Assembly: GCA_037892935.1 (NCBI GenBank)
Contig: JAYXKI010000008.1
Location: forward strand, 1,674,001 to 1,738,000
Reading direction: 5' to 3'
Source of the DNA: Phlebopus portentosus
Lineage: Eukaryota > Basidiomycota > Agaricomycetes > Boletales > Boletinellaceae
Length of the DNA: 64,000 bases
Shown: one piece after another, positions 660 through 45,311 of the stretch
Position numbering within the stretch: position 1 is the first letter of the stretch
How the letters are laid out: the number at the start of each line of letters is the position of its first letter
Notes under the pieces: model-generated
What the model saw: only the letters and a program-made list of their open reading frames with translations
Databases searched by the model: none
What the model was told of the DNA's origin: nothing
Position numbers and translations under genes: made by a program

Positions 660-1405
660 TGTATTATAAGTAATGGCGGTGAAGGCTGGTTTGCTGACAA
701 TAGTACGTGGGGTGTCCTGGGTATGGCATAGGGGAATACAGCCCTTACAGGCCTGTGCCACTGGACCGGTACAGGTTAGTGCAGTGCACTACAATGGTGA
801 CCCTCAAGGGCCCAAGCAGTGTTGCAAAGAAAAGCCCGCTGATTGCAAGCACTCTTATCGACAAATACCAGCTGTTCTGCTGTGTATTGAGAGGTGATAC
901 GTGTGATGTACTGCTCATGCAGAGTTTCATTCCGCTCGAGAGCCCTTTTCGATAACTAGACCACGACAATTTCAGTTCGCATAGACTGCATAGGGAAGCA
1001 AAGCAACAGAGACAGCCACCTTCTTAAGTGTGAAACCGGTGTGCAGCAAGGACCTGCGTATAGTCGCATCCAAAGCCTCCTTCTCCCATCTTTCCTAGAG
1101 CAGTAGCCTCAACTCGTCGATGTAACGGTCATTGAGATTGCTTAGTGACCTGAAAAGGAACTACATAGTGTGAACCAACAGCTACCAGGACAGGTTACAA
1201 CATGTGCATACCTTGGTGTGGATATAATCAAGCACTCGAGGCCTTCCACAAAAACCAAGTTCATGTGCAGCAACAGTCCCGTTGCGCTTGAACTCTTGTA
1301 TTATCCGGAAAACTGTTGTCTTGGGTATGTCAGTCAAGGCTGCGATCTGAGAGGTGCTGAGTTTCTTGTTCATAGTGATGATGCATTCCCATAAATCATT
1401 GGACA
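660..1405 (-). pseudogene. Tc1/mariner (IS630-like) transposase relic
   Basis: Read on the minus strand, 1182-1373 encodes a helix-turn-helix of the paired type (STSQIAALTDIPKTTVFRII) followed by the GRPR linker typical of Tc1/mariner N-termini. A 62-nt intron with a GTATGC donor and TTTTCAG acceptor (about 1150-1211) follows. Downstream pieces in shifting frames read DELRLLL, GFTLKKV, RALERNETLHEQY, QLVFVDKSAC and NTAWALEG. These match the order of fungal DDE_3 transposases, where VFVDESA carries the first catalytic Asp. The catalytic region is broken by frameshifts and stops, and the 3' end is cut by LTR-B copy 1. This superfamily inserts at TA, as do the foldback MITEs nearby. Confidence 0.7.
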
Positions 1406-2429
1406 GTCATCTGCCATGTCACTGGGGTTGCATGAATGAATGCTCAACATAAGCTGTAGAGATGGTGACTGTGAAGATAGTGATGGCTCAAGATCAAGTG
1501 GCGACTCGACATGTGAGTTAACCCTTCATCCTCACATGCATCACTGCTCCTATCTCTTTGCTGTGGTGCCTCATCTCTTGTAATGGTCCATCCCCAGCAA
1601 CTGGGGGTTCCCTTATGCCTGTGGGTGATGAGGAATTGGTGAGAATGAGGAGGGAATTGTGGACAAGTGATGAGAGCTGCTGTGCAGGGAGATACTGCGT
1701 ACGAAAGACTACCATCATGTACATACACTTGTGTTTCTCTGAGAGATGTTTCTGTGGCCCTGGTGGGCATGCTCGGTTTGGTTGTAGCAGGAGTGCATGA
1801 TGGCTGAGCTGACCTTGTTCGCCCTCACCCAGATATGATTTTGGGTGACATTTCAGCAGAGGATGGTCACCGAGGTGGTTTCAAGTCTGATTAGTAGATA
1901 GTACATATAATGTAGCCACACTCAAGCCTAACTCAGCTCAGCTACTATCTTGGCTGAAAGTGCCTATGCTGCTGTCTTTTTAGCAGAAACAATCAGATTT
2001 TTTGGTGTTTGAATGCGTGAGTTATGACAGATGCAATGAAGTAGGGGAGAGTTCTGTGAGCAGGAGTGACAACAAACCACCCAGTTTCACTACCACAATC
2101 ATGTCAGGGAGCCTCAAGGAGTTGCAAACAGGTGCCCACTGGGCTGGCCTGATTTATCAAACTTGAATCAGATTTTTTCGGATGACGTTGGGCAAGCTAT
2201 GATTTTTACACTGAACAGAGGGCATGACAAGAATTTAGCACTATGATGCTATCTTTTTAGTAGTGAAGTACATACTCAACAAAACCCAGACATTTTTATA
2301 TGTACTGGAGTGCATTTTTGAGCAGGTTTTTTACATGGTTATATCAGATTTTTATGTGCTGTATTGACTGAGATATTCGCTATTTTGTTTTTTTTTGCTC
2401 ATCCAGGATGCACTATGCGTCAAAAATAC
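1406..2429. other. Unassigned AT-rich spacer
   Basis: I recognise no gene or element. Open frames are short, in conflicting phases and without a known motif. The sequence is CpG-poor like the other decayed parts of the window. Confidence 0.5.
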
Positions 2430-2469
2430 ACGTGATTTTCCAAATTGCCAACAATTTTGCAATTAGCTG
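2430..2469. repeat. Orphan right end of a family-I MITE
   Basis: The sequence TTGCCAACAATTTTGCAATT...AGCTG followed by TA is the terminal repeat of the family-I foldback elements. It lies 49 bp before the complete copy I1. No matching left arm is visible, so this is a truncated or eroded copy. Confidence 0.6.
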
Positions 2470-2518
2470 TAAGCTATAGTCAAAGAATAAATTCATAGGT
2501 ATTACATGATTCACCATA

Positions 2519-3602
2519 CAGCTAGTTGCAAAATTGTTGGCAATCATGTGATTTTACCACTTTTCATGTCACAAGTGCCTCAAAACACAGATAAAATCAT
2601 ATCTCACCCAAAACTCAATGGTTTCACATCATCTAAGTTTCTAAATTCATCTTTTCAAAAGGGCTTTCATTAAGAAACAAAGATTGAGAAAATAGAGCAA
2701 AAAATGACCCTGAAATAGCAAAAATATTGTTTTTTGCCTCTTCTTTACATATACATTTTTTTCTGTGATCCCTGCTGGTCCAGCACCTCCCCAAAGCTGT
2801 CCAAAATGATAACATGATTATACTATGAATTTAAAGTCTGAATTTGAGTTGAATTGTAGACCAGAATGTACTGCTTTGAGACATGCCTGAATTACTCAAA
2901 ACTCATCATTTACCCCTAGCCTCCCAAGCTCCAGAAAAAATTCTTACAGGTCAGATTCATGTATGTAAATTCACTATAGATTAAATTCATAAGCTTTGAG
3001 CACCACCTATTGCTGTAGGATCCACTGGGGAGCTATGCTGAACAAGTAGTTCTGATTGTATGCACCATTCTAGACAGCATCTTCTCAGCTCACCAGTGCC
3101 AGCTGAGGCTCTAGCTAATATATAAACCTAGTCTATTACATCTGAAATAAATTTACATGTATGAATCTGACCTGTAAGAATTTTTTCTGGTGCTTGGGAG
3201 GCTAGGAGAAAATGATAAGTTTTGAGTGATTCAGGCATGCCTCAAAACAGTACATTCTGGTACACAATTCAACTCAAATTCAGACTGTAAATTCATAGTA
3301 TAATCATGTTATCATTTTGGACAGCTTTGGGGAGGTGCTGGGCCAGCAGGAAGTACAGAAAAAAATGCACATGCAAAGAAGAGGCAAAAAATAATATTTT
3401 CACTATTTCAGGGTCATTTTTTGCTCTATTTTCTCAATCTTTGTTTCTGAATAAAAGCCCTTTTGAAAATATGAATTTAGCAACCTAGATGATGTGAAAC
3501 CATTGAGTTTTGGGTGAGATATGATTTTATCTGTATTTTGAGGCACTTGTGATATGAAAAGTGGTGAAATCACATGATTGCCAACAATTTTGCAACTAGC
3601 TG
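2519..3602. mobile_element. Foldback MITE family I, copy I1
   Basis: A 1084-bp inverted repeat: both arms start with CAGCTAGTTGCAAAATTGTT and are near-complementary for about 500 bp around a short centre. It is flanked by TA on both sides, as for Tc1/mariner-type insertion. There is no coding capacity. Short ORFs in the arms are mirror images caused by the palindrome. I1 arms differ from each other more than those of I2, suggesting it is older. Confidence 0.85.
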
Positions 3603-3665
3603 TAAGTACTACTGTATAATAGGACCCTCTATAACATTGTTGGAGAAATTATAGCATTTTTCATA

Positions 3666-4751
3666 CAGCTAGTTGCAAAATTGTTGGCAATCATGTGATT
3701 TCATCACTTTTTATGTTACAAGAGCCTCAAAATACAAATAAAATCATATCTCACCCAAAACTCAACGGTTTCACATCATCTAAGTTTCTAAATTCATCTT
3801 TTCGAAAGGGCTTTCATTTAGAAACAAAGATTGAGAGAATAGGTAAATATTTGACCCCAAAATGGCGAAAATATTGTTTTTTGCCTCTTCCTTGCATGTG
3901 CATTTTTTTCTGTGCTCCATGCTGGTCCAGCACCTCCCCAAAGCTGTCCAGAATGATAATATGATTATAATATGAATTTACAGACTGAGTTTGAGTTGAA
4001 TTGTGCACCAAAATGTACTGCTTTGAGGCATGCCTGAATTACTCAAAACTCATCAATTTATCCCTAACCTCCCAAGTTCCAGGAAAACTTCTTACAGGCC
4101 AGATTGATGCATAAAAATTCATTTTGGATATAATAGACTAGGTTTGTGTGCTAGCTAGGGCCTCAGCATCCACTGGTGAGCTGGGAAGATACTATCTAGA
4201 ATAGTGCATACAACTAGAACTTTATGCTCAGCCCAGCTCACCAGTGGATGCTGAGGCCCTAGCTAGCACACAAACCTAGTCTATTATATCCAAAATGAAT
4301 TTTTATGCATCAATCTGGCCTGTAAGAAGTTTTCCTGGAACTTGGGAGGTTAGGGGTAAATTGATGAGTTTTGAGTAATTCAGGCATGCCTCAAAGCAGT
4401 ACATTTTGGTGCACAATTCAACTCAAACTCAGTCTGTAAATTCATATTATAATCATATTATCATTCTGGACAGCTTTGGGGAGGTGCTGGACCAGCATGG
4501 AGCACAGAAAAAAATGCACATGCAAGGAAGAGGCAAAAAACAATATTTTCGCCATTTTGGGGTCAAATATTTACCTATTCTCTCAATCTTTGTTTCTAAA
4601 TGAAAGCCCTTTCGAAAAGATGAATTTAGAAACTTAGATGATGTGAAACCATTGAGTTTTGGGTGAGATATGATTTTATTTGTGTTTTGAGGCTCTTGTG
4701 ACATGAAAAGTGATGAAATCACATGATTGCCAACAATTTTGCAACTAGCTG
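3666..4751. mobile_element. Foldback MITE family I, copy I2
   Basis: A 1086-bp near-perfect palindrome. Arms 3666-4186 and 4232-4751 (about 520 bp each) surround a 45-bp loop, with TA on both flanks and CAGCTAG/CTAGCTG ends. Arm identity is very high by eye. A transcript across it would fold into a long hairpin. It belongs to the same family as I1 and I3 (32972-34055). Confidence 0.9.
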
Positions 4752-4754
4752 TAA

Positions 4755-5067
4755 CACTACGGGCAATTTAGTATTTTACATCGGATGATAAATGGATTGA
4801 TATGTAATTTGATATTTTCAATATCATTCAATATCATTATGCATATCCTCATTAGGGATATTTTGAATATCATCGAAGTATTTAGAATATCATCAAAGCA
4901 GATATTCTGATTGACCAATCGGGATAATTTTTAGGGATATTTGCTTCGATGATATTCTAAATATCCCTAATGAGGATATGCATAATGATATTGAATGATA
5001 TTGAAAATATCAAATTACATATCAATCCATTTATCATCCGATGTAAAATACTAAATTGCCCGTAGTG
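4755..5067. mobile_element. CACTA-type MITE J
   Basis: A 313-bp inverted repeat with arms of about 125 bp. It starts CACTACGGGCAATTTAGTAT and ends with the complement ...TTGCCCGTAGTG. It is flanked by TAA on both sides (4752-4754 and 5068-5070). CACTA termini with a 3-bp duplication are the hallmark of the CACTA/EnSpm superfamily. It has no coding capacity. It sits directly on the right TA of MITE I2. Confidence 0.85.
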
Positions 5068-5096
5068 TAAGTCTTGTCACACATGCTTTCTACATA

Positions 5097-5816
5097 CAGT
5101 ATATTGTCACTCGTGACTTCTGTGATTTTTGTCACACAGAACACCTTGAAATATAAAAATCATCATATCTCACTCAATTCTTGACCGTTATGCATGATAT
5201 AAGTTGCTAAAATCATAGTTTTAAGATATGTTTCAAATTACAACAAGGATGAAGAGAAATGAGCAAAGAATGAGTGAGATATGTCACAAAAGGCTGATTT
5301 TAGACACTTCCTTCATATGCATTTTTTTCTGCCCTCAGACTGGGTGCTACAACAACATAGACTGCATAAGAGTGGTGCTATTGGCATAATATGAATTTAC
5401 AGGCATCAGCCTTTCTAAGAATAAATTTATTTTGAGGTCTGGGGGCCCTTGAGAAAAGGTAGGTTTGAGCTCAGCTCAGACATGTATCAAACCAGCAGAT
5501 ACAATGCAGAATACAGCTCAAAGTCAGTCTGTAAATTTACCCTGTAGGACTGTAGCACCCAGTCTGAGGGCAGGAAAAAATGCACATGAAGAAAGTGTCT
5601 AAAATCGGCCTTTTGTGACATATTTCACTCATTCTTTGCTCATTTCTCTTCATCCTTGTTGTAATTTGAAACATATTTTAAAAATATGAATTTAGCAACT
5701 TATATCATGCAAAACGGTCAAGAATTGAATGAGATACGGTGATTTTTATATTTTGAGGTGTTCTGTGTGACAAAAATCACAGAAGTCGCGAGTGACAATA
5801 CATATGAAAAAGGCTG
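5097..5816. mobile_element. Foldback MITE family H, copy H1
   Basis: A 720-bp inverted repeat with arms of about 290 bp, starting CAGTATATTGTCACTC and ending ...GACAATACATATG...GGCTG. TA lies on both flanks. The centre is non-palindromic and contains two copies of the CACCCAGTCTGAGGGCAG motif region in opposite orientation. It is the inverted counterpart of H2 at 7826-8563. Confidence 0.85.
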
Positions 5817-6020
5817 TAAATAGCAAGTAGATAGGGACATGTAAGGGGGATTCTCCCCTCTCGTTATACACACAATACTACGGTTTATTCCAGTCAGTAG
5901 ACGTGTGAACTGAGCTTCAGGAGAATTCTTCAGTGTGACCGAATTCCCATTCGTCACACTAAGCCTCCTATCCCTATTCCTCATCCTGACGGCGCGTCTT
6001 CACGCGTACCATCACACCCG

Positions 6021-7553
6021 ATGGAGGTCCCAGTACTACCATCGCCGTTGTGTCTCGCGTCGGCAATAGTGCCTCTCCCAGCACTCGACGTGGTTGGGAA
6101 AGACGCGTCTCCGCGGTTACCCACCGAGTTGTGGAGGGAGATATTTGTGCATGCGACCCGCGTCGTGGGTGGTTATGACACGTCTTACGAGTGAGTGACT
6201 TTCTTTCTTTTCATAGGCGTTAGGACATGCTTGTTAACAATGATTGTATGCAGGTCGCCATTTGAGAAGTCTGAAATTTCGAACGGGTATGCCTACTTCC
6301 TCAGACAATTAAAGGAAAACCACCGCACAAAACAGGCGTTGTGTCTCGTGTCGAAGACATGGCGTGCTCTAGCATTTTATCTCATCTTTGAGTATCTGTT
6401 TCTTGAAGAATCGTACGACTGGTCGAAGCTCGCGGAAGCGCTCGAGGGAAGCAAGCTAAAGCAAAGAGGTCGGGGAGGCCACGGGATGGGATGGTATTGC
6501 AAACGGATTGAAATCTATACGCGTTCTTGGACGCAAGAGCTCGGCGTAGCCGCGGCGCGCGTTGTGCGCTGCTGTCCAAATCTACGCGTTTTGGTCGTTG
6601 TTGCACTCGAGAAAACCGGAGGTGTCCCGGTTGAATTAATTCAAGCTGTCTTCGAATCATGCCCCAGGGCAATTCGTTCCCTTGATTGGACGTGCAATAT
6701 CGGAGCAGACCAGACTACGGAGATGTTCTGCCTTATTTCAAAAGCGGCAAAGCTGCAATCTTTGTTTTTGTGCGTACAGCAGGACCTAGATGCCAGCCAT
6801 GCCGAGAAGATAGATGGCGTTGGATCTCTTACGCTTCCTGAGCTACACACGATAGAACTTCTTTCCCCCGAATTTGATCCTTCAGACGTCCTTCTAGTCA
6901 TGGCGACCTGGAAACTCCCCAGTCTTCGACATCTCGTCCTTTGCGGTCAAACAGATCTGAGTTTTGCACACTGTTTCTTCGAAGCACACGGGCCGAGCCT
7001 CTCGACCTTGGAATTCGATTACGCAGGAGAAACCGATCCTGAACCGGCTTTCCAGTCTGTGCTTCCCCAGCGAGGTCCAGAAATGCTATTCGCTCACTGT
7101 CCGAATCTCACGGAATTAATCCTGCAAGCCCATTGGGCATCCTCACAAGCGCTTCCCGGGCACCCAAAAATCGAGCGTATTGGGCTTCGCGGTCTACATC
7201 TCCACGCCGGTTCCCAGACCAGAAATCGTGGCGGCGGACTCGCACTCCGTCCAGAGCACGACGCAGAACAGCGTGCCATCCTGCAAGCTCTTAGAGCAGC
7301 CTTCCCCATACTTGTCGATCGTGCGCGTTTCCCGAGCATTAAATCTGTTCGACTTCTGGACTTCGACCAGTCCCGTTTCCGCAGCATACCATGGCGCGCG
7401 TCGCGAGTGGCTCACTGGGCATTCTGGGTGAAACGATTTGAACGACTGGGTATTCGCCTGGAAGATCATGCCGGTGATCTTATCGAAATTATATTCCGAG
7501 AAGTAAATGTTCTTTTGCCGGAGGATGAGGAACCATATGTACTGCAAAGCTGA
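6021..7553 (+). CDS. F-box/LRR-like protein, two exons
   Basis: Exon 1 is 6021-6190, the intron 6191-6253 (GTGAGT...TATGCAG, 63 nt, with a CTTGTTAACAATGA branch region), exon 2 is 6254-7553. The join makes codon GAG and gives 489 residues ending in TGA. The N-terminus contains the F-box-like LPTELWREIFVHA (about residues 36-48). A second helix follows (QALCLVSKTWRALAFYLIFE), as in Agaricomycete F-box-like families. The rest is a leucine-rich scaffold with repeats such as CPNLRVLVVV, LPELHTIELL, LPSLRHLVLC and CPNLTELIL. These proteins are thought to act as SCF ubiquitin-ligase adaptors; the substrate is unknown. The gene keeps CpG-rich codons, unlike its flanks, and no lesion is visible. The start was chosen because the F-box lies only in exon 1; the ATG at 6021 is the first in frame that I see. 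Confidence 0.85.
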
Positions 7554-14527: not shown

Positions 14528-15412
14528 TGTTATGAAAATTGTGGATACTCAATGCGGCATGGAATCAGACACTTTATGCATCGAATTATGCAGCCTAATC
14601 AAGAGCATTTTGAAAGGCTCTAGAGACAGAACAGTGGAGGCAATTCTTGCCCACTAATGCAGCAAGTACCTGGGGAGGCAGCTGCTGAAGATGTTTCAGA
14701 GGAACTCAGTCGACAATATTATAAAGACAAATATGATGAAAGGGAGGACCCATACAATTTGCAAGAAGGATTATCTAGAATGCATATTGGACATACTCCT
14801 CCACTAGAACAAAGCTATATACAGATGGAAGACTAAAATATCGCAAGATACATAGAACTCCTGCAGAAGAGGCTCTATTGATGTGGTGCAACTAGACACT
14901 TTGTTCATGAAAGCCTGGTGTGTACAAACTGCTATTTGGCATATCAAAGAAGTTGGGTTCTTTCGAAGTGGCTCCTCAAGAACTTCATGGAGTGCTTAGT
15001 AACAAGGGAGGCAGCCGATGCTAAGATTCAACATAAGCCCGGACCCTCAGAACAAATGCTTAACTAACCATTACTGAACCATGGAATGAGCACATATGAG
15101 CATGAGGTATCCATATGGCTTGGTGATAGGGATATCTATGCATTAAAGGTTGGTGTGAGAGCTTGGATCAATCAGCATCGTCACCAGACCTTGTGCCGAA
15201 ACACTACAGTGGAAGTTGATTGGCCGGTATATTACAGGCCACCATCAGACATTGAAGATCTTACAGAAGAAGTGATAGCACGGATGCTAGAAGCATGGGA
15301 ACAATTGAAAGAAGGGGTTATTACAGTGGATGAATGGTGTAGAACAAATCACCTAGGACAGCAGTTCAGGTTAACAATAGGCACTGGACTACAGTACTCC
15401 GATATCAGTATA
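14528..15412 (+). mobile_element. LTR-F copy F0, 5' part (split by element K)
   Basis: The segment begins TGTTATGAAAATTGTGG and matches LTR-F1 (17232-18836) from its first base. It stops at ...CAGTATA. The remainder of the same LTR-F resumes at 24823 (TAGCGGC...). Joining the two across 15413-24822, with TA counted once, gives AGTATAGCGGC, the same sequence as the uninterrupted sites in F1 (GATATAGCGGC) and F3 (AGTATAGCAGC, complement). It carries the 5' part of the LTR-F open frame, with stops by transition. Confidence 0.85.
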
Positions 15413-15430
15413 CATCAGGAAAACAGTCCA
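15413..15430 (+). repeat. Left terminal inverted repeat of element K
   Basis: CATCAGGAAAACAGTCCA follows the target TA directly. Its complement, with A/T exchanged at position 11, ends the element at 24822. Confidence 0.85.
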
Positions 15431-16465
15431 AATTATCCACTGCTACCCATAGCTACCCATAGCTACTCATAGCTACTCACTACTATAGGCTGCTATATAG
15501 CAGCCTATAGTAGGTTAGTAGTCCATAGTGATTTATCGTGACCCCCCTACTATAGAGAGGGCTGTAACAGTGTATAGATGCTATAGTTAATATTTATTCA
15601 TAGTACTAGAAAGAGATGAATAGTGCATAATATATAGCAACCTGTAGCAATTGATACAGATTTATAGTGCTACTAGCACATAGTGTATAGTGCCTTATAG
15701 TAATTAGTATGAGTTTATAGCTGATACTAGATACTTATAGTTGATAGTTCTTATAGGTGATATATTGCCATAGCATATTAAAGATATAGATAGTCATATA
15801 TTATCATAGATAGCACTTATGAGAGACCATGAGCATATTGGAGAACATATTTAATTTTTATTAAATTTAAATATATCAATAGTATACTACTTACAGACCT
15901 ATACAAGCATGTAACTAATTACATGTACAGCTTACTATAGAATCTATGTGAGCTAGGCGTACACTCATATACACCTATACTAATATAGACCAATGCTACT
16001 TGTCGGAGATAATAAATGGTCAAAAGTGTTAACACTAGACACTGTTGACAGGACAAAGGAACTTCCACTGGCTTCAAGGCCCAAACTGGTTAACACAAGG
16101 TCAGAGTGCACTAGCGCCGCCCCAGCTAAGTGGCACAGGTTCAGCAGTGCATAGCACACCTCCAGCTGGCTGGCAAACAGCCACAGTATAATAGGTGCTG
16201 CCCTGGCTAAGTGCACAGGTTCAGCAGCACTCAACATACTACCTCTACACCTGGGCTGCCCACTGCGACAGGGACAGAGGTGTCCAAGAACCACAGACCT
16301 CCCAACAGCCAGAACAACAATTAAAAGAAAAGGTAATGAAGTGGCCTGAAGCCATTGCAATCTGCAAGGTGAGAGATGGTCCAGAATGTGGATGCGTATG
16401 CATCCACAATTCAGTGGCTCAACATAAGGAGCCAATTACCTTACAGGTCCATTCAGCACCAGCCT
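15431..16465. other. Left subterminal zone of element K
   Basis: 15431-15960 is AT-rich with many copies of CATAGCTAC and CTATAGTA words, comparable with the right subterminal zone. 15961-16465 holds an imperfect duplication (GCTAAGTG(G)CACAGGTTCAGCAG at about 16125 and 16206). The long minus-strand open frame here has no recognisable motif. Confidence 0.5.
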
Positions 16466-16553
16466 GAAGACATGTATGAGTGCATTCCATGTCCTACACA
16501 GCATGGCCAATGCACTGCGCAAGTTCATGCAGTAATCTTGCAGTGCCATACCT
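16466..16553 (+). repeat. Duplicated Argonaute fragment
   Basis: Translation gives TCMSAFHVLHSMANALRKFMQ, then a stop and SCSAIP. This is a diverged copy of MCMSAFHIPQSMADALHEFM...SAVP at about 17092-17180 in the Argonaute pseudogene. It lies upstream of the N-terminal exon in direct orientation and out of order, so it is a local duplication. Confidence 0.65.
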
Positions 16554-17231
16554 AGGAGGCCATCAACTTGCGCAGGCATATTGTTGCCAAATTTGCTCAG
16601 TCTCAGGAACTGTTGCAGAATGTGCAGGGCATTGCACATGATGGCATCAGTCGCCTCATTGCAAAGCTGCTGCTGCCAAAAAACTTTCAGGTCACGGTGA
16701 CAGCACTGGCCCCATCGTCCGAGGAACTGGGTGCATGCACGCACGATATCCCATACTTTGTCACACTTGTCGGACCTAATCCTCTTAAATCAGCAGACCT
16801 CGCTGGGTAAGGCTTGCCCTTCAACCGTAATCTAATAGTGATACTGACTTCTTTCTTCAACAGGTACCTATGTGGTGAGAATCCTGACTACGATCCTGCA
16901 CCTATCATCTCAGCCTTCAATCTGATCGTTATGGCGCATGCCACTCACACTGGTTTTTGCACACTCACCAAGGATGCATACTATTTCAACCCCAATGTGG
17001 ATACGGGCATGCCTACTCGCCCTGGCATCAAGGTCATCAACGGCTTCTTCGCTTCCATCTGTCCAGTTCACAAGTCCCTCATGGTCAGCGTGAATATGTG
17101 CATGAGCGCGTTCCACATCCCGCAAAGCATGGCCGATGCGCTGCACGAGTTCATGCAGCAATCTCATAGTGCCGTACCTCAGAAATTCTTCGGTAATATG
17201 AGGGTAGTTACAAGTTACCTCGGGTACAATA

Positions 17232-18836
17232 TGTTACAAAAATTGTGGATATACAATGCGGTGTGGAATCAGACACTTTACACACCGAATCATGCAGCCT
17301 AATCAAGAGCATTTCAAAAGGCTTCAAGGACAGAATAGTGGAGGCGATTCTTGCCCACTAGGGCAGCAACGACCTATGGAGGTAACTGCAGAAGATATTC
17401 AGGAGGAACCCAATCGACGATATTATGAAGACGAACGTGATGAGAGGGAGGACCCATACGATTTGCAGGAAGGATTAGCTGGAATGTACATTGGACATAC
17501 TCCTCCACCCGAGCGAAGCTACGTACAGATGGAGGAATGGAACATCGCAAGATATGTGGAACTCCTGCAGAAGAGACGATATCAACATAGTGCAACCAGA
17601 TGCTTTGTTCACGAAAGCCTGGTCTGTACGAATTGTTATTTGGCATACCAAAGGAGTTGGGTTCTTTCAGAATGGCTCCTCAAGAACTTTGTAGAGCGCT
17701 TAGTAACCAGGGAGGGAGCCGATGTCAAGATTCGACATAAACCCGGACCCTTGGAATGAACATTGGACCAACCATTGCCGAACCGCGGGATGAGCGCATA
17801 TGATCACGAGGTATCCATATGGCTTGGTGATAGAGATATCTATGCACTGAAGGTCGGCGTGAGAGCTTGGATCAATCAGCATCGTCACCAGACCTTGTGT
17901 CGAAACACTGCAGTGGAAGTCGATTGGCCAATCTATTACAGGGCGCCATCGGACGTCGAAAGTCTTATCGAAGAAGCAATGGATCGAATGCTAGAAGCAT
18001 GGGAATGATCGGAAGAAGGGGTTATTACAGTCAACGAATGGCACGAGACGAATCACCTGGGAAGAAGATTCAGGTTAATGTCGGGTACCGGACTACAATT
18101 CTCCGACATTGATATAGCGGCACAGCATAGAAGAGTATCTGCCAAGTTTACACAGCCGCCAAGGTTAATCTCCGAAGATCGGCAGGGGTTGCCGATCCTA
18201 AATCCCAAGATAACGGTCAGCCCCATGATGGAAGACTAACGGCAGAAGCTCGGCCGGAGTAACAGAGCGCCGGCGAAGTGAGATCGCAGCACATGGAAGA
18301 AGTCTCTCGTGGGAGGATTAGCATTAAGGATTAACATGTGATAGACACAGAGATCGATAGAAGCCTAGGGAAAGCTTCTTCGGAATGGAGGAAGATAAAG
18401 GCCTGCCTAATAGGGAAGAAAGTATTTGGTGGTGCTATTGGGAGTTTCGGTAGTGCTACCAGCATTGTCAGTGGTACCATCGACTCAAGAAAGTGGTGGT
18501 GAAACCAGCTGAAACATGTTGTCCCAACCAATGGCAAGGCATGGTCGGTAGTAGTTGGTAGTTGGTAGTATTCAGTAGAGATTTTATTTAAAGCACCAGC
18601 TGAGCGGGGTGTTGTCCCTCAGCAAAATTATTTTGTACTTTCAATCACAACTGTACCCCTTTGATTGAACCTCTGCTCTACTGCTGGGTTAAGCTTGAGC
18701 CTATAGCTCGCTTCTTAGTAGTACATCTAACCTTTGCTACTCTACTCTCCAATTATACATTGTCAGAAGGAGGAAGCAGGGACTTGTTCCAGTACGCTCG
18801 GATTGACCACCTTGTCCGAAAACGCTGGTCCTAACA
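17232..18836 (+). mobile_element. LTR-F copy F1, complete, inside Argonaute
   Basis: 1605 bp, starting TGTTACAAAAATTGTGG and ending ...GGTCCTAACA. The 5-bp target duplication CAATA lies at 17227-17231 and 18837-18841. Removing the element and one duplication restores the Argonaute reading frame (YLGYN joined to RRNTVKAIG). TG...CA ends, 5-bp duplication and a TTTATTTAAA box near 18577 indicate a solo LTR. Its upstream two thirds encodes a conserved frame (next entry). Other copies: F0, F2 and F3. Confidence 0.85.
17256..18239 (+). CDS. Conserved ORF inside LTR-F (unknown protein)
   Basis: I do not recognise this protein. In F1 the frame runs 328 codons from ATG 17256 to TAA at 18237-18239, with in-frame TGA codons at 17757-17759 and 18006-18008. 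Other copies have sense codons there: copy F0 has CAA at both, and F3 has TGG at the second site, though F3 shares the first TGA. Three copies (14556-15410, 17256-18239, complement of 61000-61760) keep the same frame with mostly conservative differences. They share YDLQEGLAGMYIGHTPP, VHESLVCTNCYLAYQRSWVL and HEVSIWLGDRDIYALK. A cysteine pattern around CxxH...CTNC might bind metal. It lies in the presumed U3 region. Frame conservation suggests past selection; a non-coding LTR is the alternative. Confidence 0.5.
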
Positions 18837-21279
18837 CAATAGGCGCAACACCGTGAAGGCGATTGGACCCGGTATGGTGAGATGGACAAAGATCCAGAGT
18901 GAAAAATTTGGCAATATCACAGTGGAGGAATATTTCTAGAAAAGTAAGTCATCCGTGGATCGAATAGGAATCGTGCTGACTATTGCACAGAGTTCCACAT
19001 CACACTCCGCCATGCAGATGACCTGCCCATAGTGAATGTCGGGAAAGAGGGCAAGGACATTTTTGTACCAGCTGAGCTGTGCAAGATTGTACCAGGGACC
19101 CTTTTCGTGGGTGAGCTGAAGTCTGGGGAGAGCGCAGCCCTGTGTGCTGCAAACAATAAGACGCCAGCTGGTTATACACAGACAATCACTATCAAGGGTC
19201 TCCGTCTCCTAGGCTTTGAGGAGGGCACACCTCCGATGGCCAGCTTCAGAATCAAAATCTCGACAAATATGGCTGTTGTCGCAGCTCGCGTTCTCCCCAC
19301 ACTGTTGGTGATTTATCCTTCGGGCTGTGCACAAATTGTCAATAGATCTTGGACAGTGCGTGGCATTCATTTTGCGAGGCTTGCAGAGCTTAAACGCCTT
19401 GCAGTTGTGGTCTTAAAGGATGGAAATATAGAAGAGTCCGACAGCTCGCTCGAGGTGCAGGTGCGCAAGACGGTGAAGGCTCTGATCGGAAAATATCATG
19501 CATGTGGAATGAACGTCAACTCGGACTTCATCATGCAGGTCCTGCAGCTCCACCGTCTGAGTCGAGAGGATCCATACCGCGATGAGGATGTGGACAAAGT
19601 ATCAAGGTTGTTCAAATTGCTGCCAGGCAGGCCCCAAATGGTTCTTGCCCTCATGTCAAACAAAAATAAGCACATCTATGCGGGACTCCACCAGTACTTT
19701 GACGTCGGCCAGGACTTCCAGTCCATGATTGGCCTCATCAAGAACATGCTCGACAAGGAGGGCCACGATCAGTATCTGCCAAATCTTGCACTCAAGGTTA
19801 ACACAAAGCTTGGTGGGGTCAACCATCGGCTGGAGCCTGCTTCTCTGAAATGGCTGGCAAACACAATGGTGGTCAGGTTCGATGTGATTAAGCCAGGTGG
19901 GAATGCGGTCAAGGGCGTGCCTGGTATTGCAGCGGTCATGGTGTCATGCGATATGAACTTCACCCCAGTGCCATGCAAGTGTCTCCCTTCAGGGAGTAAA
20001 AGAAGAGGTGAGCTCTCATTTTTATGCTATTATGCAGGCGCCTGATGCAGCTATTCATAGACAGTTGAAAACTTACCTGGTATGATTCTGGAATGCTTAA
20101 AGAACTATCGTCAAAGCATGGGCTCATTCCCTGAATGGATCCTTATATTCCGTGCCAGTATTTCAGATGGCCAGCATGTGCGGGTAATGGCCACCGAGAT
20201 CAAGCAGCTGAATGAAGCATTCGGTGAACTGAAGAAATACAAACCGAAGTTGACTTACATCACTTGTAGCAAAGGTCATCAGACTCAGTTCTACCCCAGC
20301 CACAGACGACCCTAAGTTCGAAATGCCCCTATACAGTTTCTTGAGTTGCTGTACAAAAATACTGGAACTTGCATATTCCCGAGGCTGCCCATCAAACAAG
20401 TGTTGATGATGTTGACGACCGTCAGTAGTGGTCGCTAGTTCGGCAAACGTTTGCATGGCAGCCCCATTGACTCTGAGCTTCGAAGTCTTCGTGATCAGAC
20501 TGTGGCAGCCTGGACTTTACTGTGAAAACGGAATATAAGCTGGAAGGCTAGGTCGGCAGCAATATGTGGTGGAGGTCTGTCATTTCATTTGTGCTGGTCA
20601 TGGATGAGGCTGAGACAACAGTATACACACATCTCCAATTTGTTAGGTGATTCAGCCTTTCCTCTTTGATCATCACAGAACTCCTTTAGAGACAGCAGAG
20701 CTTTTGCAGGCGTAAAGATCCAGACAACAACTTGATGGCAAGGTTGAGGACTCACAGTTCATAAGCTGCTGGATCTCCAAAGCTTGATCAAACATAGGTA
20801 TGTCGTACATGAGATAGAGTGAAAGGATATGAAAATGTGTACATCGTTCATGAGACTTGATAGTTATTGGTCCGTTGTCTTGCTGAATCATGAAACCGTT
20901 GCATACAGCTCGAGAGCAATCTCTGGCAAATGCCTGAGTCTCTGTGAAGTCACTGAAGTTCATCAGATGCATCCTGCACATCACGACGACTGACAAGACC
21001 TCGTGCTCTATGGTGGGAATGAGTATAGACCAGGGCATGATGAGCATTTACGACTACAATTTCTCTTTGCAGGCTCATGCAGGCATGCAAGGTATTGCTC
21101 GTGCAGTTCACTACACCATCCTCTATAATGACAAGAAGTTATCTCCCAACACCCTACAGCAAGGCATCAATGAAATCTCATACCTGTGGTCAGCATCAAT
21201 GAAGGGTGTGAGCCTAAAACTGCCAGCCTACTGGCAAGTCAAGCATGTGCAAGGTGATGTCGCCGGTCGAGGGCAGTAA

Positions 21280-21934
21280 GGAGGTGAGGATGGGGAAGGA
21301 GGGATGTGACTTGTGTGAGTTGCGAGTTGCAAAGTCAACTTCATCACGTGCAACAAAAGGGTAAGACCGAAAAAAAAAGACAAGATTGATACTCCCCATG
21401 TTCACAAGTCCTAATGATAACAAACAAATCTTGATAAAATTGAACCTAAATTTATATCATTATAGCACTTTCTAAAGCTGCCTGATGTAAACAAAGCAAG
21501 CTCAGAAGGTCAGCATAACCAGAAAGTACTGTACTATATTTAAGGTGTTATTTAACTCTATCATGTGATTGTGGGAAAGTCTTCAAAAACTCGGATGCGT
21601 ACACATCCATTGCTCTTACTCTTAGGAGGTGTGTATTTGGGTAGGTCATGTAACCCATGACTACACTAGCTTTGTACATCATCTACACGAGATCCATATT
21701 AAATTGTGAATGTATAACCAGCACTGGTTTAGCACGGACCGTCTAGATGAAATAGGTTGTACATACATATAGATATGCATACATGACCTACATCTCTATA
21801 TGTAGGCCTGCATATATTTACTCTCTGCTTTATTAACAGGCTCTGCTGCCTCAACATTTAGAAATTTTGTTTTCCACTTTCAGACCAATTTATAATTATA
21901 TTTGATTAGAAATTATCAAAATACATACAAGCTT
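21280..21934. other. Unassigned spacer in element K
   Basis: An AT-rich stretch between the Argonaute and Hsp70 relics. No motif was recognised. Confidence 0.5.
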
Positions 21935-22360
21935 AGCGGATGGTGGCACTGTACACAACAGCCTCATCTGGGTTGATAGACTTGTGTGGCTCCTTGCCAT
22001 TGAAGAAGTCAGGCATGAACTTGACAATTCAGGGTATATGGGTGGAACCATCGTCGAGGATGATCTTGTGTACATTGGAATTGTCTATCTTGGAGTCCCA
22101 GATAATCTTCTCAATAGGCTCAAGTGTGGAATGGAAGAGATCCTGGCACAGCTTCTTGAATCATTGTCAGCATATGTTAAGAAGATCTCTGACTTCTTCG
22201 TTGGGACAGTCATATTATGCTTGATAAATGCAGTCATGACACTGCCAGTGGTCTCGATACTGAGTGACAGAGGAGTGACATCGAGCAAGAAGGGGTCTTG
22301 GGTCTTCTCTGAGGTGTCACCCTTGAGGATAGCAGCCAACGATCTTGTTTGCTTGGAGTG
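21935..22360 (-). pseudogene. Hsp70 fragment, rearranged
   Basis: Read on the minus strand, 22340-22160 encodes [20 protein letters not shown], then [18 protein letters not shown] and [10 protein letters not shown], the Hsp70 stretch at the end of the nucleotide-binding domain and start of the substrate domain. It is fused directly to a second piece (22190-21940) with [19 protein letters not shown] and [19 protein letters not shown]. In a normal Hsp70 that piece precedes the first. The order and the overlap with the fragment at 22985-23770 show a duplication or fusion of two copies. Confidence 0.75.
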
Positions 22361-22984
22361 AAATGATCTGCTTGGGGACCCATGCTATTTGACTGAGTTC
22401 AGCCCCAGTCTCCTCACTCTGGGGAATGCCACACAGAGATCAGAGACAATAACACAAAGTGGAAGTGATACGATATACTGCATGTTCATTTATCACCATG
22501 GAAGCCAGCATTGTACAGAGGAGTGACAGAAAGATTGAGATGAAAGCCTGCATAAAATTGGTCAGAGCTCAGACATGAATATATAGGTTGGGTATGCACT
22601 CAAATAGGGCACTAGTCAGACCTGGAGACACACCATAGACATTTTGTGCAACGATGGCTGTCAGTTGAAGATGACATAACTATATTGATACTAAAGAAAG
22701 ACGTCCATATGCTTATTGTACCGAAGATCTACATGCTTTCCGGTATCTTGAATCACATATTGCACTTGAGGGTATTCTCTCGATCCATTCTGCATGAGCT
22801 CTTATAAGTACGCGATATTGTACGGAGTCACTGTCAAACAATTTTAAATCACACATCAACCAAGATGCTCTTCCTACTAACCTCTTTCTTGATATGTGAG
22901 AGGCATGATAATGCTCTTTGGTGTGGCAACTTCGTCCAGTTCCAGATTTGGGTCTCCAGTGATGACAGTATGTGCCAAAAAATC
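22361..22984. other. Unassigned spacer between Hsp70 pieces
   Basis: No coding match was recognised. It may include decayed Hsp70 intron or flank sequence. Confidence 0.45.
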
Positions 22985-23770
22985 AATACATTTCCCCATC
23001 AAGTTACCATGTAGACATCCGTGACAGCCTCATCTGGGTTGCCAGACCTGCATAGCGCCTTGCTGTTGAAGGAGTCAGAAAAGAGCTTGACAATACAGAG
23101 GATACAGGTGGAACCTCTGATAAGGACCATCTCATGTACATTAGACTCATCGACCTTGGAGTCCCAGAGAACCTTCTCAACAGGCTCAAGCATAGACTGG
23201 AAGAGATCTTGGCATAACTCCTTGAATTGTGCACGGGTGATCGAGGTGTAAAAGTTGATACCCTCATAGAGTGAATCAATTTTGATGGTCATCTGTGCTG
23301 CTGACGACAGTGTACGCTTTGCACACTTGCAAGTGGTACAGAGTCGGTAAAGAGCACAAGGGTTCAATGAAAGATCTAAGAAAATCAGTGTCAATACCAT
23401 GATCGTACACCATTGGAATGACTTAAATTACATACCCTTCTTGTTCTTGTGCTTGAACTCCTGAATGAAGTAGTTTATGAGGTAATTGTCAAAGTTCTCA
23501 TCACCCAAGTGACTATTGCCAGCAGTCGCCTTAACTTCGAAGATACCCTCCTCAATGGTCAAGAGTGACACATCAAAGGTACCTCCACCAAGGTCGAAAA
23601 TGAGAACATTGCACTTGCCTTAGAGCTTCTTGTCAAGACCATATACAATAGCAGCTACTGTAGGTTCATTGATGAGTCGGAAGAAGTTGAGGCCAGAGAT
23701 GACACTAGTGTTGCCTGACATTGCGAGTTGTTAAAGTAAGCAGGAACAGTGATGATGGCCTCAGTGACAG
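22985..23770 (-). pseudogene. Hsp70 pseudogene, nucleotide-binding domain
   Basis: On the minus strand the order is ITVPAYFN (about 23740), [11 protein letters not shown] followed by a stop, [22 protein letters not shown] (phosphate-binding loop intact), [20 protein letters not shown] and NKK. An intron 23376-23435 (GTATGT...TTTCTTAG) splices in phase to [12 protein letters not shown]. Then come [33 protein letters not shown] and [14 protein letters not shown], where functional Hsp70 has VGGSTRIP. The stop and the altered GGSTRIP motif show it is dead. It is convergent with the Argonaute pseudogene. Confidence 0.85.
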
Positions 23771-24189
23771 TGCTATAAAACAGTCATGAATGAGGAGGAT
23801 GAAGCAGGGATGGAGATGATTTGTAGGTGCTAAGGGTGAAAAGAGTGACATGACAGTGGTGGCAAGAGACAAAGAGGACAACATGTCAAAATGAATCTAA
23901 GCCCGTCAAATACTAGCACTAGCCTATATAGATCTGTGTAGATTTACATAGTTCTATTATGCAAATCTAGTCCAGTTCTTGTATATCAACTCTCAAAACC
24001 TAATCAAACACCATGTCAGCTAGACAAAACTATACAGACATTTATGTTAGGTGATCTACACAGAAATGCATATATTTGTGTACCTAATGTACCTTGTTCT
24101 ACACAAATTTTCTGTGTGATGTAAGATAGATTTTTGTGTAGATTTCCTTATCTTGGGTACGTTCAGCTACACAGGCATGTGTTAAGGAC

Positions 24190-24800
24190 CTCCAATATAC
24201 AGTAATTGATTGCTATTCATTACTATGTACTAATATTGATATAGAATATCATCTATATGCATTTATATATTACTATATATTACTAGTCATATATTGACTA
24301 TGTATTACTAATCTCTATCCAGTAATATAGACAGTTTACCACTATAAACAACTATATACTTCTTTAAACTATGGACTATAACTATTTATTAGGATCTATA
24401 CAGAGATATCAGACAATATACTACTATTGATTACTATTTATATCTATGTAGTATATGTTACTATAGGATATCATCTATATGCATCTATATATTACTATAT
24501 ATAACTAATCATATATTGACTATATATTACTAACCTCTATTGCTATCTAAATACTGTTATGAATTGCTCACCACTATAAACAGCTATATACTTCTTTGAA
24601 CTATTATCTATAACTGTCTACCAGGCCCTATACAGAGGTATCAAACTATGTGATACTATTAATTGCTATTCATATCTATATACTATGTATTACTGTAGAA
24701 TACTATCTATATGTATCTATATATTACTATATATTACTATAGTATACTATGCACTACTATGAACTACTATGGTGTTATAACTCACTATCCATTAATAACT
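24190..24800. repeat. AT-rich tandem repeats, unit about 225 bp
   Basis: The words ATCATCTATATGCAT/ATTTATATATTACTAT recur at about 24250, 24472 and 24703, giving roughly 225-230 bp spacing and nearly three units. The array sits just inside the right terminus of element K and is built from TATAGTA-type words, like the left subterminal zone. Confidence 0.6.
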
Positions 24801-24804
24801 CAAA

Positions 24805-24822
24805 TGGACTGATTTCCTGATG
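24805..24822 (-). repeat. Right terminal inverted repeat of element K
   Basis: The complement reads CATCAGGAAATCAGTCCA. It is followed by the TA duplication at 24823-24824. Confidence 0.85.
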
Positions 24823-25544
24823 TAGCGGCATGACATAGAAGAGTATCTGCCAAGGTTACACAGCCACCAAGATTAGCCTCAGAAGATTGGCAGGGGTTGC
24901 CGACTCCAAACCCAGAGATCACAGTCAGCCCTATGATAGAAGACTAGCGGCAGAAGCTCGGCCAAGAAAATGAAGTGCTGGCAAAGTGAGATTGCGGCAT
25001 ATAGAAGAAGTCTCTCGTGGGAGGATTTGCAGTTAAGGATTAACATGTGATAGGAACAGTGATCAATAGAAGTACAGGGAAGCTTCTTCAGGACAGAGGT
25101 AGATAAGGACCTGCCTAATGTAGAAGGAGGTAGATGGTGGTGCTACCAGGAATGTTGGTAGCACCACTAGGATTGTCAGTGGTACCACTGACTGAAGGAA
25201 GTGGTGGTGAAACCAGCTAAAACATATTGTCCTGACCAATAGCGAGGCATAGTCGGTAGTATTTGGTAGTTGGTAGTATTTAGTAGAAACTTTATTTAAG
25301 GTGCCAGCTGAGCGGAGTGTTGTCCCTCAGCAAAATTATTTTGTACTCTCAATCATAACTGTACCCCTTTGATTGAACCTCTGCTTTACTGCTGGGTTAA
25401 GCTTGAGCCTATAGCTCGCTTCTTAGTAGTACATCTAGCCTTCACTACTCTACTCTCCAATTATACATTGTCAGAAGGAGGAAGCAGGGACTTGTTTTGG
25501 TATGCTTGGACTGACCACCTCATCCAAAAACACTGGTCCTAATA
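24823..25544 (+). mobile_element. LTR-F copy F2, 3' part (other half of F0)
   Basis: It matches LTR-F1 from 18115 to its end at 18836 and stops at ...GGTCCTAATA (CA end changed to TA). Together with F0 it makes one LTR-F copy into which element K was inserted. Confidence 0.85.
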
Positions 25545-32616: not shown

Positions 32617-32971
32617 TGAAACATGTCTGCTGGCTCTAAAGGCCAACTGACTGTCTGAAGGTCTGAGTTCAACCTCTGGGGGTCAACCAGATGTGTACAA
32701 TGTAAGAGGAAGTGTCTAAAATGTGAGGAGTGTATGCTGGTGTTGAGGGGAATGGCTTAGAGAAGGGGGAAACAAAATACAAAAGGGTGTCGTGTCAGAA
32801 GTATAAACTGAGCCACCTACTCTGAGGTCAAAAACTAGCTAGCTAAGTCAATAATGTAAAATGAGAGATCAAAAGTACTCATTGACATGATCCTAACAGA
32901 TTAAGAATCACAATGAACGGATAAGAAATGAGGGAGATACAGACTGAACAAGATATCGGAAAACTATCATA

Positions 32972-34055
32972 CAGCTAATTGCAAAATTGTTGGCAATCAT
33001 GTGATTTTGTCACTTTTCATGTCATAAGAGCCTCAAAACACAAATAAAATCATATCTCTCCCAAAACTCAATGGTTTCACATCATCTAAGTTGCTTAATT
33101 CATCTTTTGGAAAGGACTTTCATTTAGAAACAAAGATTGAGAGAATAGGTAAATATTTGACCCCAAAATGGCGAAAATATTGTTTTTTGCCTCTTCCTTG
33201 CATGTGCATTTTTTTCTGTGCTCCATGCTGGTCCAGCACCTCCCCAAAGCTGTCCAGAATGATAATATGATTATAATATGAATTTACAGACTGAGTTTGA
33301 GTTGAATTGTGCACCAGAATGTACTGCTTTGAGGCATGCCTGAATTACTCAAAACTCATCATTTACCCTTAACCTCCCAAGCTCCAGGAAAAATTCTTAC
33401 AGGCCAGATTGATGCATAAAAATTCATTTTGGATATAATAGACTAGGTTTGTGTGCTAGCTAGGGCCTCAGCATCCACTGGTGAGCTGGGAAGATACTAT
33501 CTAGAATAGTGCATACAACTAGAACTTTATGCTCAGCCCAGCTCACCAGTGGATGCTGAGGCCCTAGCTAGCACACAAACCTAGTCTATTATATCCAAAA
33601 TGAATTTTTATGTATCAATCTGGCCTGTAAGAATTTTTCCTGGTGCTTGGGAGGCTAGGAGTAAATGATGAGTTTTGAGTAATTCAAGCATGCCTCAAAG
33701 CAGTACATTCTGGTGCACAATTCAACTCAAACTCAGTCTGTAAGTTCATATTATAATCATATTATCATTCTGGACAGCTTTGGGGAGGTGCTGGACCAGC
33801 ATGGAGCACAGAACAAAATGCACATGCAAGGAAGAGGCAAAAAACAATATTTTCGCCATTTTGGGGTCAAATATTTACCTATTCTCTCAATCTTTGTTTC
33901 TAAATGAAAGCTCTTTCGAAAAGATGAATTAAGCAACTTAGATGATGTGAAACCATTGAGTTTTGGGTGAGATATGATTTTATTTGTGTTTTGAGGCTCT
34001 TATGACATGAAAAGTGATGAAATCACATGATTGCCAACAATTTTGCAACTAGCTG
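32972..34055. mobile_element. Foldback MITE family I, copy I3
   Basis: A 1084-bp palindrome with arms of about 519 bp (32972-33490 and 33537-34055). Ends are CAGCTAATTGC and ...CTAGCTG. Flanks are TA (32970-32971, 34056-34057). The intact LTR-C at 36421-36440 reads ACTATCGTAAAATCGGAAC, the empty site with a single TA, which proves the 2-bp duplication. Confidence 0.95.
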
Positions 34056-34100
34056 TAAAATCGGAACTCGAAAAATGAAGTGGAACTCTGTGGAACTTGT

Positions 34101-43328: not shown

Positions 43329-45311
43329 TGTAGTGCCCTGGCCAGTCCTGTGCCAGGACACTCATACTATGGCTCTCCCCTACTTCAGATACCATATCCC
43401 TTCGCCGCCTACACCTCAGAGGACCAAGGCATACTCATACCACACTCTAGAGGCCATACGAGCACATATCTATAGATTCTAGCCTACGCTTCCCCCTGCG
43501 GCGCCCTCCGAGAGTCCAGACGAGTCCGCCGCTGGCTCCCTGGCACCCATACACATCCGCCGAAGGCTCCTACCCAGCACCAGACACCATAGGAGATGTC
43601 CCCCAATCATTATAGGCCTTCGTTATTACAATTCCTCATACGTACAGGCTCGAGGCGGATTTGGACACCCCTGCGGCGGCCCCCCAAGCCTCAGATTGGT
43701 CCGGCGGCCACTCAGGCGTCCTCAGGTGCCCTCGCCGAGGCCTCCTACAACTTACCAGGCAGTCCCCCAAGGCCTATGGATTTATCTAGTATCATCCCTG
43801 CTCATATGCCACTAAAGGCCGCAGTTTTACGAATCCGCCGCCGATCGAGCGGCGACTTGCAGATCCGCCGCTCCGGCGCCCTCCTTAGTTACCATGGATC
43901 GCCTACACTCTATATTGAGTGCGGCGGCGGCCTTGGGCGGCCCAGAGACCCTGACTGATGCGCCCTCTATCTCATATATGCGATATGAGCCTCCGAACAT
44001 CGGCCCCGATGTTTCCCGACTTCTCCCCAAGCAGCGGGCGACTCTAGACCATATATGGCAGTCAGGCATGTGGTACAGCGGCGTGCCAAGCCACCGACCG
44101 CCGCCGCCAAGCCAGACTCCGCCGGCGCCCGTTTTATTGCAGATACACGATATATCATACTATTGGATAGCCCCCTCACGTTGGCGCTGCTATACGCCTC
44201 CTAGATGCTCCGGCGGCGGCCCTTGGCGAGCCCAGTGACTCAGGAGATGTTGTCAGACAGTAGGACTCATCGGCGAGAGCAGTAGAGTATATATAGAGTG
44301 TATATTCATCAGTAGACGACACCACATACCAGATACAAGAGCACATTCATAGCAGAGAGCTTCCACATCATACAAGGGCCAGGGTTCGAGATTCCCTCAC
44401 TCTGAGCTCCCCCTCATGTACTGAGCTCCCCCATTGACTATATACTACCCTTGACTCGTCGTTCTATTCTCCTTCGGCGCCTCTGACATTTAGTGTGTGA
44501 GTCAGGACTGGGAACCTACCCCCAAACGTCCGCCGCACTCCATTGTACCTGTCGGGCGGCCTCTATTCAACCTCGGCGGCCCTCCGGCGACACGGGCCTT
44601 CTGTCCTACACCCCTGCGGCGTCTTTTCCAGTTACTCGCCGCATGTTGTCCCTTATATTCATCATAGACGGCCCCTACCTTTCATTTATCTGGTTTACGC
44701 TACTGCGGTGGATTTGTACACGCTCCCTCGTCCCCGGCGGCCCCCTATTCGACCTCGGCGGCCCTCCGGTGACACAGGCCTTCCATTGTATTCCCCCTCG
44801 GCGTCTTGTTCATCTACTCGCCGCACGTTACGCCTCGTATCCGTCGTATACGGTCCCTACCTTTCATTTATCCAGTTTACGCTACCGCGGCGGATTTGTA
44901 CGAGCTCCCTCGTCCCTGGCGGCCCCCTATTCGACCTCGGCGGCCCTCCAGCGACACAGGCCTTCCATTGTATTCCCCCTCGGCGTCTTTTTCACCTACT
45001 CGCCGCACGTTACGCCTCATATTCGTCATATACAGTTCCTAGCTTCCTCCTACTGAGATTGCGCTACTCCGGCGGACTCCTGTGACCTCCCCTTCGGTCC
45101 GGCGGACCTACTAGAGCATTCCTTTCATACCTCGGCATCACTAGGCCACTCCCCCACGTCTCTGACGGTCTTTGGCACCTGCCAGGTGGTTAGTGGTTGG
45201 AGTCTGATAGCTTGAGGCTTCGTTTCTGGAGGTTTCTTCACACATTCAGCTCCCTTAGTAGGACGGACATCTGTAGCGCCTTCAGATAGAGAGACCACCC
45301 AGAATACCACA
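43329..45311 (+). mobile_element. LTR-like insert E (probable solo LTR)
   Basis: 1983 bp starting TGTAGTGCCCTGGCC and ending ...CAGAATACCACA, with the 4-bp duplication ACGC (43325-43328, 45312-45315). Removal joins the two parts of the accessory gene in frame. TATATATA at 44288-44295 is a candidate promoter. The sequence is CpG-rich with GCGGCGGCC words, unlike the rest. No internal retroelement region is present. Confidence 0.85.
44540..45055. repeat. 182-bp tandem repeats in insert E
   Basis: CTATTCRACCTCGGCGGCCC recurs at 44563, 44745 and 44927, an exact 182-bp period, with nearly three units. Open frames across it are repeats of each other and are not taken as genes. Confidence 0.8.

Follow-up and report, generated by a model that had tools for sequence, protein, structure and literature searches.

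INTRODUCTION

The closest described relatives of the mobile element analysed here, which lies within a 64,000-nucleotide stretch of the Phlebopus portentosus genome (the window; C8:1674001-1738000 of an assembly of 38.4 Mb in 23 contigs, designated C below), are the PlavakaB transposons of the CMCT clade, whose marks are CATCA..TGATG ends and target-site duplications of 2 or 3 bp (Kojima 2025, PMC12730594). In its organization it resembles the Pack-TYPE elements of plants, which are non-autonomous and hold gene fragments from multiple loci between terminal inverted repeats (TIRs) (PMC8903248). Gene capture by fungal DNA transposons has already been published (PMC3538342, PMC6710886, PMC4289320); in Pyrenophora and Pseudocercospora, a hAT transposon captured and amplified a host histone H3 gene, the Pseudocercospora copies being inactivated (PMC3538342, PMC6710886). 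In Drosophila, the transposon TART-A captured a piece of the host silencing gene nxf2, and its PIWI-interacting RNAs (piRNAs) are proposed to repress nxf2 (PMC7785250).

The element described here shares with PlavakaB the CATCA..TGATG ends, the 2-bp duplications, and a partner that encodes a Plavaka transposase and a weak TET/JBP-like open reading frame (ORF) but differs in that its 7.8-kb form contains no transposase and holds pieces of host genes. It departs from the plant Pack-TYPE elements in its fungal host, its Plavaka ends, and the sharing of part of its cargo with another transposon superfamily. Whereas the H3-carrying hAT elements (PMC3538342, PMC6710886) captured one gene, intronless in Pseudocercospora, and many have a transposase domain, this element carries pieces of four genes, keeps the introns of its Argonaute, and is without a transposase. 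Like TART-A (PMC7785250), it holds a piece of a host silencing gene, but TART-A is telomeric and backed by piRNA evidence, whereas the present case is a DNA transposon described from genome sequence. Among the matches listed in our literature searches on Plavaka, Pack-type elements, gene capture, and transposon-carried Argonaute, neither a Pack-type Plavaka element from a fungus nor a transposon reported to have captured Argonaute appeared. We conclude that the element is real and well resolved, being new in its ends, host, and cargo and ordinary in kind. On the strength of its termini, target-site duplications, partner transposase, shared subterminal DNA, Argonaute and SAC3 sources, and near-neutral main Argonaute exon, it is very probably a non-autonomous Pack-type PlavakaB transposon that carries pieces of host genes as dead cargo. 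As a multicopy case from a mushroom fungus, it offers a Plavaka-type interior rebuilt from host genes, and a single genome contains the sources of two of the pieces, their junctions, and the transposase that probably serves the element. It also presents an Hsp70-RPB1 chimera that two transposon superfamilies have in common.

RESULTS

Termini and target-site duplications

An earlier note on this DNA had described a mobile element with 18-bp inverted termini, TA on both flanks, and an empty site in two other copies of the long terminal repeat (LTR) that it had entered. This description was borne out, positions 15413-24822 forming one complete element whose two termini match exactly. The joined flanks (300+300 nt) align across the junction to window positions 17817-18411 (82%) and 61370-60833 (82%). 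The element proper is 7.8 kb, and the window copy is longer because a solo LTR with TG..CA ends sits inside it (Table 1). When the window was shuffled, matches to the terminus with up to 3 mismatches averaged 0.19, and two matches were reached in 2 of 100 shuffles.

Across the genome, 63 matches to the terminus were found with up to 2 mismatches, against none for a reversed control pattern. Counting as a pair any plus-strand match directly followed by a minus-strand match gave 27 pairs. One end reads ..AAAACAG.. (A form) and the other ..AAATCAG.. (T form) in 26 of the 27; in the remaining one, C6:221863 and C6:317230 are separated by 95 kb and show the same form at both ends. Not counting this exception and adding an outer A/T pair on C14 (380126-465042), which encloses a nested pair, yields 27 inward-facing A/T pairs and leaves 9 matches unpaired, so the search for further pairs proposed in the earlier note was productive; both adjustments favor the A/T rule, and 26 of 27 direct neighbors is the plain figure.

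Exact 2-bp duplications flank 12 of the 18 insertions checked and comprise six different sequences (TA five times, TT three times, and AA, TG, TC, and CA), at odds with the TA-only flanking expected by the earlier note. For the first 13 insertions, 8 of which match, the chance probability is about 2e-7 at 1/16 per site. Because the duplications vary, we rejected a TA-specific superfamily such as Tc1/mariner. Assignment to Tnp2/CACTA was likewise not borne out, as the element ends read CATCA and the Transposase_21 match lies in a different locus (L048, described below) and not in L016, the 7,809-bp sister copy used as a reference.

A partner Plavaka transposase

The 27 pairs fall into two classes, with 7 enclosing a Plavaka transposase, the other 20 enclosing Argonaute sequence, and none having matches to both. 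A transposase-bearing version with the same termini, which the earlier note had suggested looking for, thus exists: within C6:138517-162224, the Plavaka transposase family PF18759 matches in two pieces of 204 and 73 bits (209 and 80 bits as single ORFs). Sequence 95-100% identical at the amino acid level is present at 8 loci, which account for the 7 pairs, the eighth locus (C3:69995) being 10 kb from a single end. The element at C6:138517-162224 also shares subterminal DNA with the 7.8-kb element, with identities of 78% along 238 columns of the A end and 82% along 528 columns of the T end. A six-frame search of the 7.8-kb form (L016, E up to 0.05) found no transposase family, and we regard this form as non-autonomous for that reason. 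Judged by its ends, its 2-bp duplications (12 of 18), and the Plavaka transposase in elements with the same ends (7 of 27 pairs), the element is very probably a non-autonomous member of PlavakaB. As in Pack-TYPE elements, the TIRs are those of a known superfamily with no transposase between them, and the Argonaute and SAC3 fragments have their sources elsewhere in the genome. In the seven transposase pairs, six-frame searches, which can miss decayed cargo, gave no Argonaute or Hsp70 match. A TET/JBP-like ORF lies on the minus strand of the transposase-bearing element at C6:138517-162224 (L023:4639-5214; Tet_JBP, 20.4 bits, below the cutoff of 34.9).

Argonaute-bearing loci number 24, consisting of the 20 pairs and 4 loci beside single ends (C23:48859, C15:445811, C8:1430469, and C6:223778); at one further single end, C3:2754459, Hsp70 and RPB1 matches adjoin and no Argonaute is listed. 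Twelve of the 20 Argonaute pairs are 7.4-8.2 kb long. We rejected the idea that longer pairs represent "giant cargo elements" of 15-40 kb, given that L026-L028 (C2:1798056), the sole long Argonaute-type pair read whole, is a 7.8-kb element interrupted by an insert with retrotransposon-like ORFs and, at its ends, direct repeats of at least 1.3 kb that are 99% identical.

Argonaute and SAC3 fragments and their sources

Several of the part measurements were made on L016, whose layout the window copy shares apart from its later solo LTR. From the A end, L016 begins with a subterminal region; next come an MKWPEAIAICK-encoding stretch at 924, Argonaute at 1142-3275, an antisense SAC3 fragment at 3411-3932, the Argonaute Piwi tail at 3971-4271, and an antisense Hsp70-RPB1 module at 4608-7184, followed by a subterminal region up to 7809. 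At least four host genes have thus contributed broken fragments to the cargo. The Argonaute parts had been read by the earlier note as standing in order, which holds on the plus strand for both the window copy and L016 (ArgoL1, PAZ below cutoff, ArgoL2, and Piwi), but the gene is incomplete, lacking its N-terminal part, and is interrupted within its Piwi part by a SAC3/GANP fragment in antisense orientation. The complete reading frame under selection that would mark a functional Argonaute was not found.

The source Argonautes are an inverted pair at C4:1881834-1884304 and 1896391-1898864, to which the element aligns at 89% nucleotide identity over 2,134 columns including introns and at 72-73% over the Piwi tail. 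At the amino acid level, the pair is 82% and 80% identical to the element, compared with 41% and 36% for two other resident Argonautes, which makes it the closest among the loci that the exon query reached; Piwi matches also occur at further loci (e.g., C3:2366825, C2:1033953, C1:4316684, and C4:917168). Capture from DNA, as proposed earlier, is supported by the alignment running through introns. The C4 pair has no SAC3 inside, and the SAC3 fragment has its own source at C19:188992-189514 (91% over 523 columns). No Hsp70 match was listed in the 20 kb of sequence examined on and about the source Argonautes.

The source pair has features of its own (L030/L031, C4:1881407-1884409 and 1896288-1899297). 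At what we take to be active-site residues, both members have RAG where QDE-2 and the two other residents have RDG, and at the fourth position they have S (H in AGO3, D in QDE-2); from these residues the pair is predicted to be slicer-dead, yet it is under purifying selection. The M28 peptidase ORF next to the pair matches a Sanghuangporus weigelae cluster at 92% amino acid identity and Fomitiporia mediterranea at 75%, a similarity that would place the host in the Hymenochaetaceae, close to or within Sanghuangporus.

The Hsp70-RPB1 module

Hsp70 lies on the strand opposite to Argonaute and is therefore convergent with it, as the earlier note had stated, and a fragment of RPB1-type RNA polymerase domain 2 sits between the Hsp70 pieces. 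Only profile positions 131-429 of 599 are covered, both translated copies (window and L016) have an Hsp70 exon disrupted by an internal stop and a frameshift, and 12 of the 13 listed exon matches contain a stop. The module is collinear, at 84% over 1,970 columns, with a segment of L048 just upstream of an ORF that matches Tnp2 (Transposase_21, 31.2 bits, cutoff 28.6). This ORF is one of five near-identical Tnp2 transposase ORFs (L048/L049; C7:53534-57079, C12, C13, C15, and C16), four with equal scores and one slightly lower, each beside an Hsp70-RPB1 chimera, and further Hsp70-RPB1 copies are located elsewhere in the genome. Because the Hsp70-RPB1 piece adjoins the Tnp2 transposase with no Argonaute match listed there, Hsp70 belongs with RPB1, and Argonaute and Hsp70 were most likely joined by separate events. 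The nearest open Hsp70 gene piece (C2:2712262, 74% amino acid identity) is a candidate source only. Pfam "NAD-GH" matches on the plus strand of L016 lie opposite the Hsp70 stretch, are presumably an artifact, and were rejected as cargo, as was MreB, which scored below cutoff.

Argonaute and Hsp70 occur close together at a second place in the genome: within 15 kb, the subtelomeric block L029 (C20:329810-344546; also on C18 and C12) contains a decayed Argonaute, an inverted pair of Hsp70 pieces, and another Tnp2-like family, and none of the 63 terminus matches falls there.

Evolution of the Argonaute exon

Selection was assessed on a single Argonaute exon of 323 codons, aligned from the two source genes and 19 of the 24 loci, leaving out C2:1690, C13:83, and C4:2123 (each with a partial exon), C4:2380 (no match), and C1:2302 (split), with expected counts obtained by dealing the same mutation types to random sites on the tree. 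Within the element, we counted 292 nonsynonymous and 199 synonymous changes and 6 stops, where 307, 185, and 4.9 were expected. The resulting N/S ratio relative to expectation is 0.88 for element copies (0.90 on terminal and 0.80 on internal branches), compared with 0.25 on the source-gene branches, which indicates purifying selection there. CpG transitions make up 317 of the 497 changes; once CpG mutation is allowed for, the exon evolves about neutrally among the copies. The CpG observed/expected ratio is 1.16 in a source gene and 0.46 in one old copy, and such CpG decay would fit methylation of the copies. Between the two source genes, uncorrected dN/dS is 0.07-0.19 over four segments.

Table 1. 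Parts of the element and its target site, in window coordinates
Feature	Position	Strand	Remark
Target-site duplication TA, left	15411..15412	.	
Terminal inverted repeat, A form	15413..15430	+	
A-end subterminal region	15413..15642	+	Shared with transposase-bearing element (measured on L016)
MKWPEAIAICK-encoding stretch ahead of Argonaute piece	16336..16368	+	Opens Sanghuangporus gene models P0001, P0003
First segment of the Argonaute fragment, lacking the N-terminal part and retaining introns	16554..17231	+	
Later solo-LTR insertion	17232..18836	.	Duplication CAATA at 17227-17231 and 18837-18841
Argonaute fragment continued: PAZ end, L2, Piwi start	18837..20296	+	
SAC3/GANP fragment, antisense, within Argonaute	20432..20953	-	Identity to C19 source measured on L016
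Argonaute Piwi tail	20992..21292	+	
Hsp70-RPB1 chimeric module	21629..24203	-	Common to a Tnp2 element
Duplicated Hsp70 piece	21948..22337	-	
RPB1 domain 2 fragment	22604..22991	-	
Hsp70 main fragment, broken by stop and frameshift	23016..24103	-	
T-end subterminal region	24205..24822	-	Shared with transposase-bearing element (measured on L016)
Terminal inverted repeat, T form	24805..24822	-	
Target-site duplication TA, right	24823..24824	.	

DISCUSSION

We consider it very probable that the ends of the element derive from a PlavakaB element and that its interior was replaced by pieces of host genes (Argonaute and SAC3) and by an Hsp70-RPB1 chimera that Tnp2/CACTA also carries. Capture may have proceeded by copying of other DNA during repair or by remobilization of neighboring insertions, and the Hsp70-RPB1 piece would have passed between the superfamilies in a direction that we infer rather than observe. 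Probably mobilized in trans by the partner Plavaka transposase of the same genome, the element has reached at least 24 Argonaute-bearing loci. We read the cargo itself as dead sequence.

Several observations weigh against parts of this scenario. Six of the 18 insertions (L010, L013, L014, L018, L020, and C6:138517) have no exact 2-bp duplication, among them the transposase-bearing C6:138517, which has CAGG on both flanks; a ninth, decayed transposase match (75%) lies just outside the pair C3:2762856-2784457; and the cargo-free status of the seven transposase pairs is an absence of matches, with only C6:138517-162224 read. As for the exon, 15 of the 19 copies are free of in-frame stops in it (gaps occur in 6 of the 19), the stem branch has a ratio of 0.44, though the stem includes time in the functional gene, and three pairwise comparisons of copies gave uncorrected dN/dS values of 0.35-0.48, so that the near-neutral reading depends on the CpG correction. 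We nevertheless rejected purifying selection on the element's exon, since raw dN/dS is low but CpG transitions dominate the changes.

The earlier note had proposed that the transposon captured, or served as a vehicle for, a silencing module; on this reading, Argonaute and Hsp70 would be carried because their products jointly load small RNAs. The 7.8-kb copies do keep both genes, and in most copies the largest Argonaute exon is open, but an Argonaute that is truncated, split by SAC3, and near-neutral, an Hsp70 that is confined to the middle of its profile and broken in the copies translated, and the occurrence of Hsp70-RPB1 beside a Tnp2 transposase elsewhere leave this proposal scarcely tenable; the link to chaperone-assisted loading is unsupported, the two genes having most likely arrived separately. 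Nor do we give any real credence to a segmental duplication of a host locus with Argonaute beside Hsp70, later flanked by repeats. The subtelomeric block, in which about 6 kb separate the remnants of Argonaute and Hsp70 and the termini are absent, might be seen as such a locus, but its order differs (same direction and Argonaute unsplit there, convergent in the element), the source Argonaute locus has no listed Hsp70 match in the 20 kb read, the copies all end at the same precise points, with 2-bp duplications flanking 12 of the 18 insertions checked, and the existence of an empty site contradicts duplication. The plain alternative of the earlier note, chance neighborhood in the donor locus, comes nearer the truth, but the neighborhood was assembled inside transposons, the source locus having no listed Hsp70 in the 20 kb read.

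An effect through RNA deserves separate consideration. Transcripts of the element might feed small RNAs that lower expression of the source Argonaute pair and so aid the element's persistence, as proposed for TART-A and nxf2 (PMC7785250). Between the copies and the two source Argonautes, 454 and 413 exact 21-mers are held in common (longest exact runs, 67 and 77 nt), whereas neither of the two further resident Argonautes compared has any; in principle, this would permit small-RNA action on the source genes. Any captured gene gives such matches, however, the SAC3 source sharing 55 21-mers too, and the source genes keep their CpG and low dN/dS. In the TART-A/nxf2 case the shared region evolves faster (PMC7785250), which is not seen in the source Argonaute pair, where the captured exon 3 (dN/dS 0.16) is no faster than the largely uncaptured N-terminal part (0.19). 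We therefore regard counter-silencing as unlikely, and we are slightly more doubtful that the Argonaute piece is kept for its RNA, not its protein, with small RNAs from two dozen copies acting on the resident pair. If true, a fungal DNA transposon would be turning RNA silencing against its own machinery. Because the captured gene is an Argonaute and exact matches to a live pair remain, a TART-A-like conflict is testable in an ordinary fungus.

Occurrence in other species and other repeats

The Pack-type PlavakaB element, or an ancestor of it, is probably present in at least two named species, Sanghuangporus vaninii and Sanghuangporus sanghuang, because gene models there share junctions with it. 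Models P0001 (S. vaninii) and P0003 (S. sanghuang) both begin with MKWPEAIAICK joined to Argonaute; P0003 ends in FYPSRRRS, as does the element ORF, which stops just past the start of the SAC3-bearing stretch. The final 84 residues of P0003 match copy L040 at 99% identity.

Elsewhere in the window there are three copies (2517-3604, 3664-4753, and 32970-34057) of a repeat whose palindromic arms measure about 480-520 nt and are 91-99% complementary, and a tandem array at 44555-45045 consists of 2.7 copies of a 182-bp unit.

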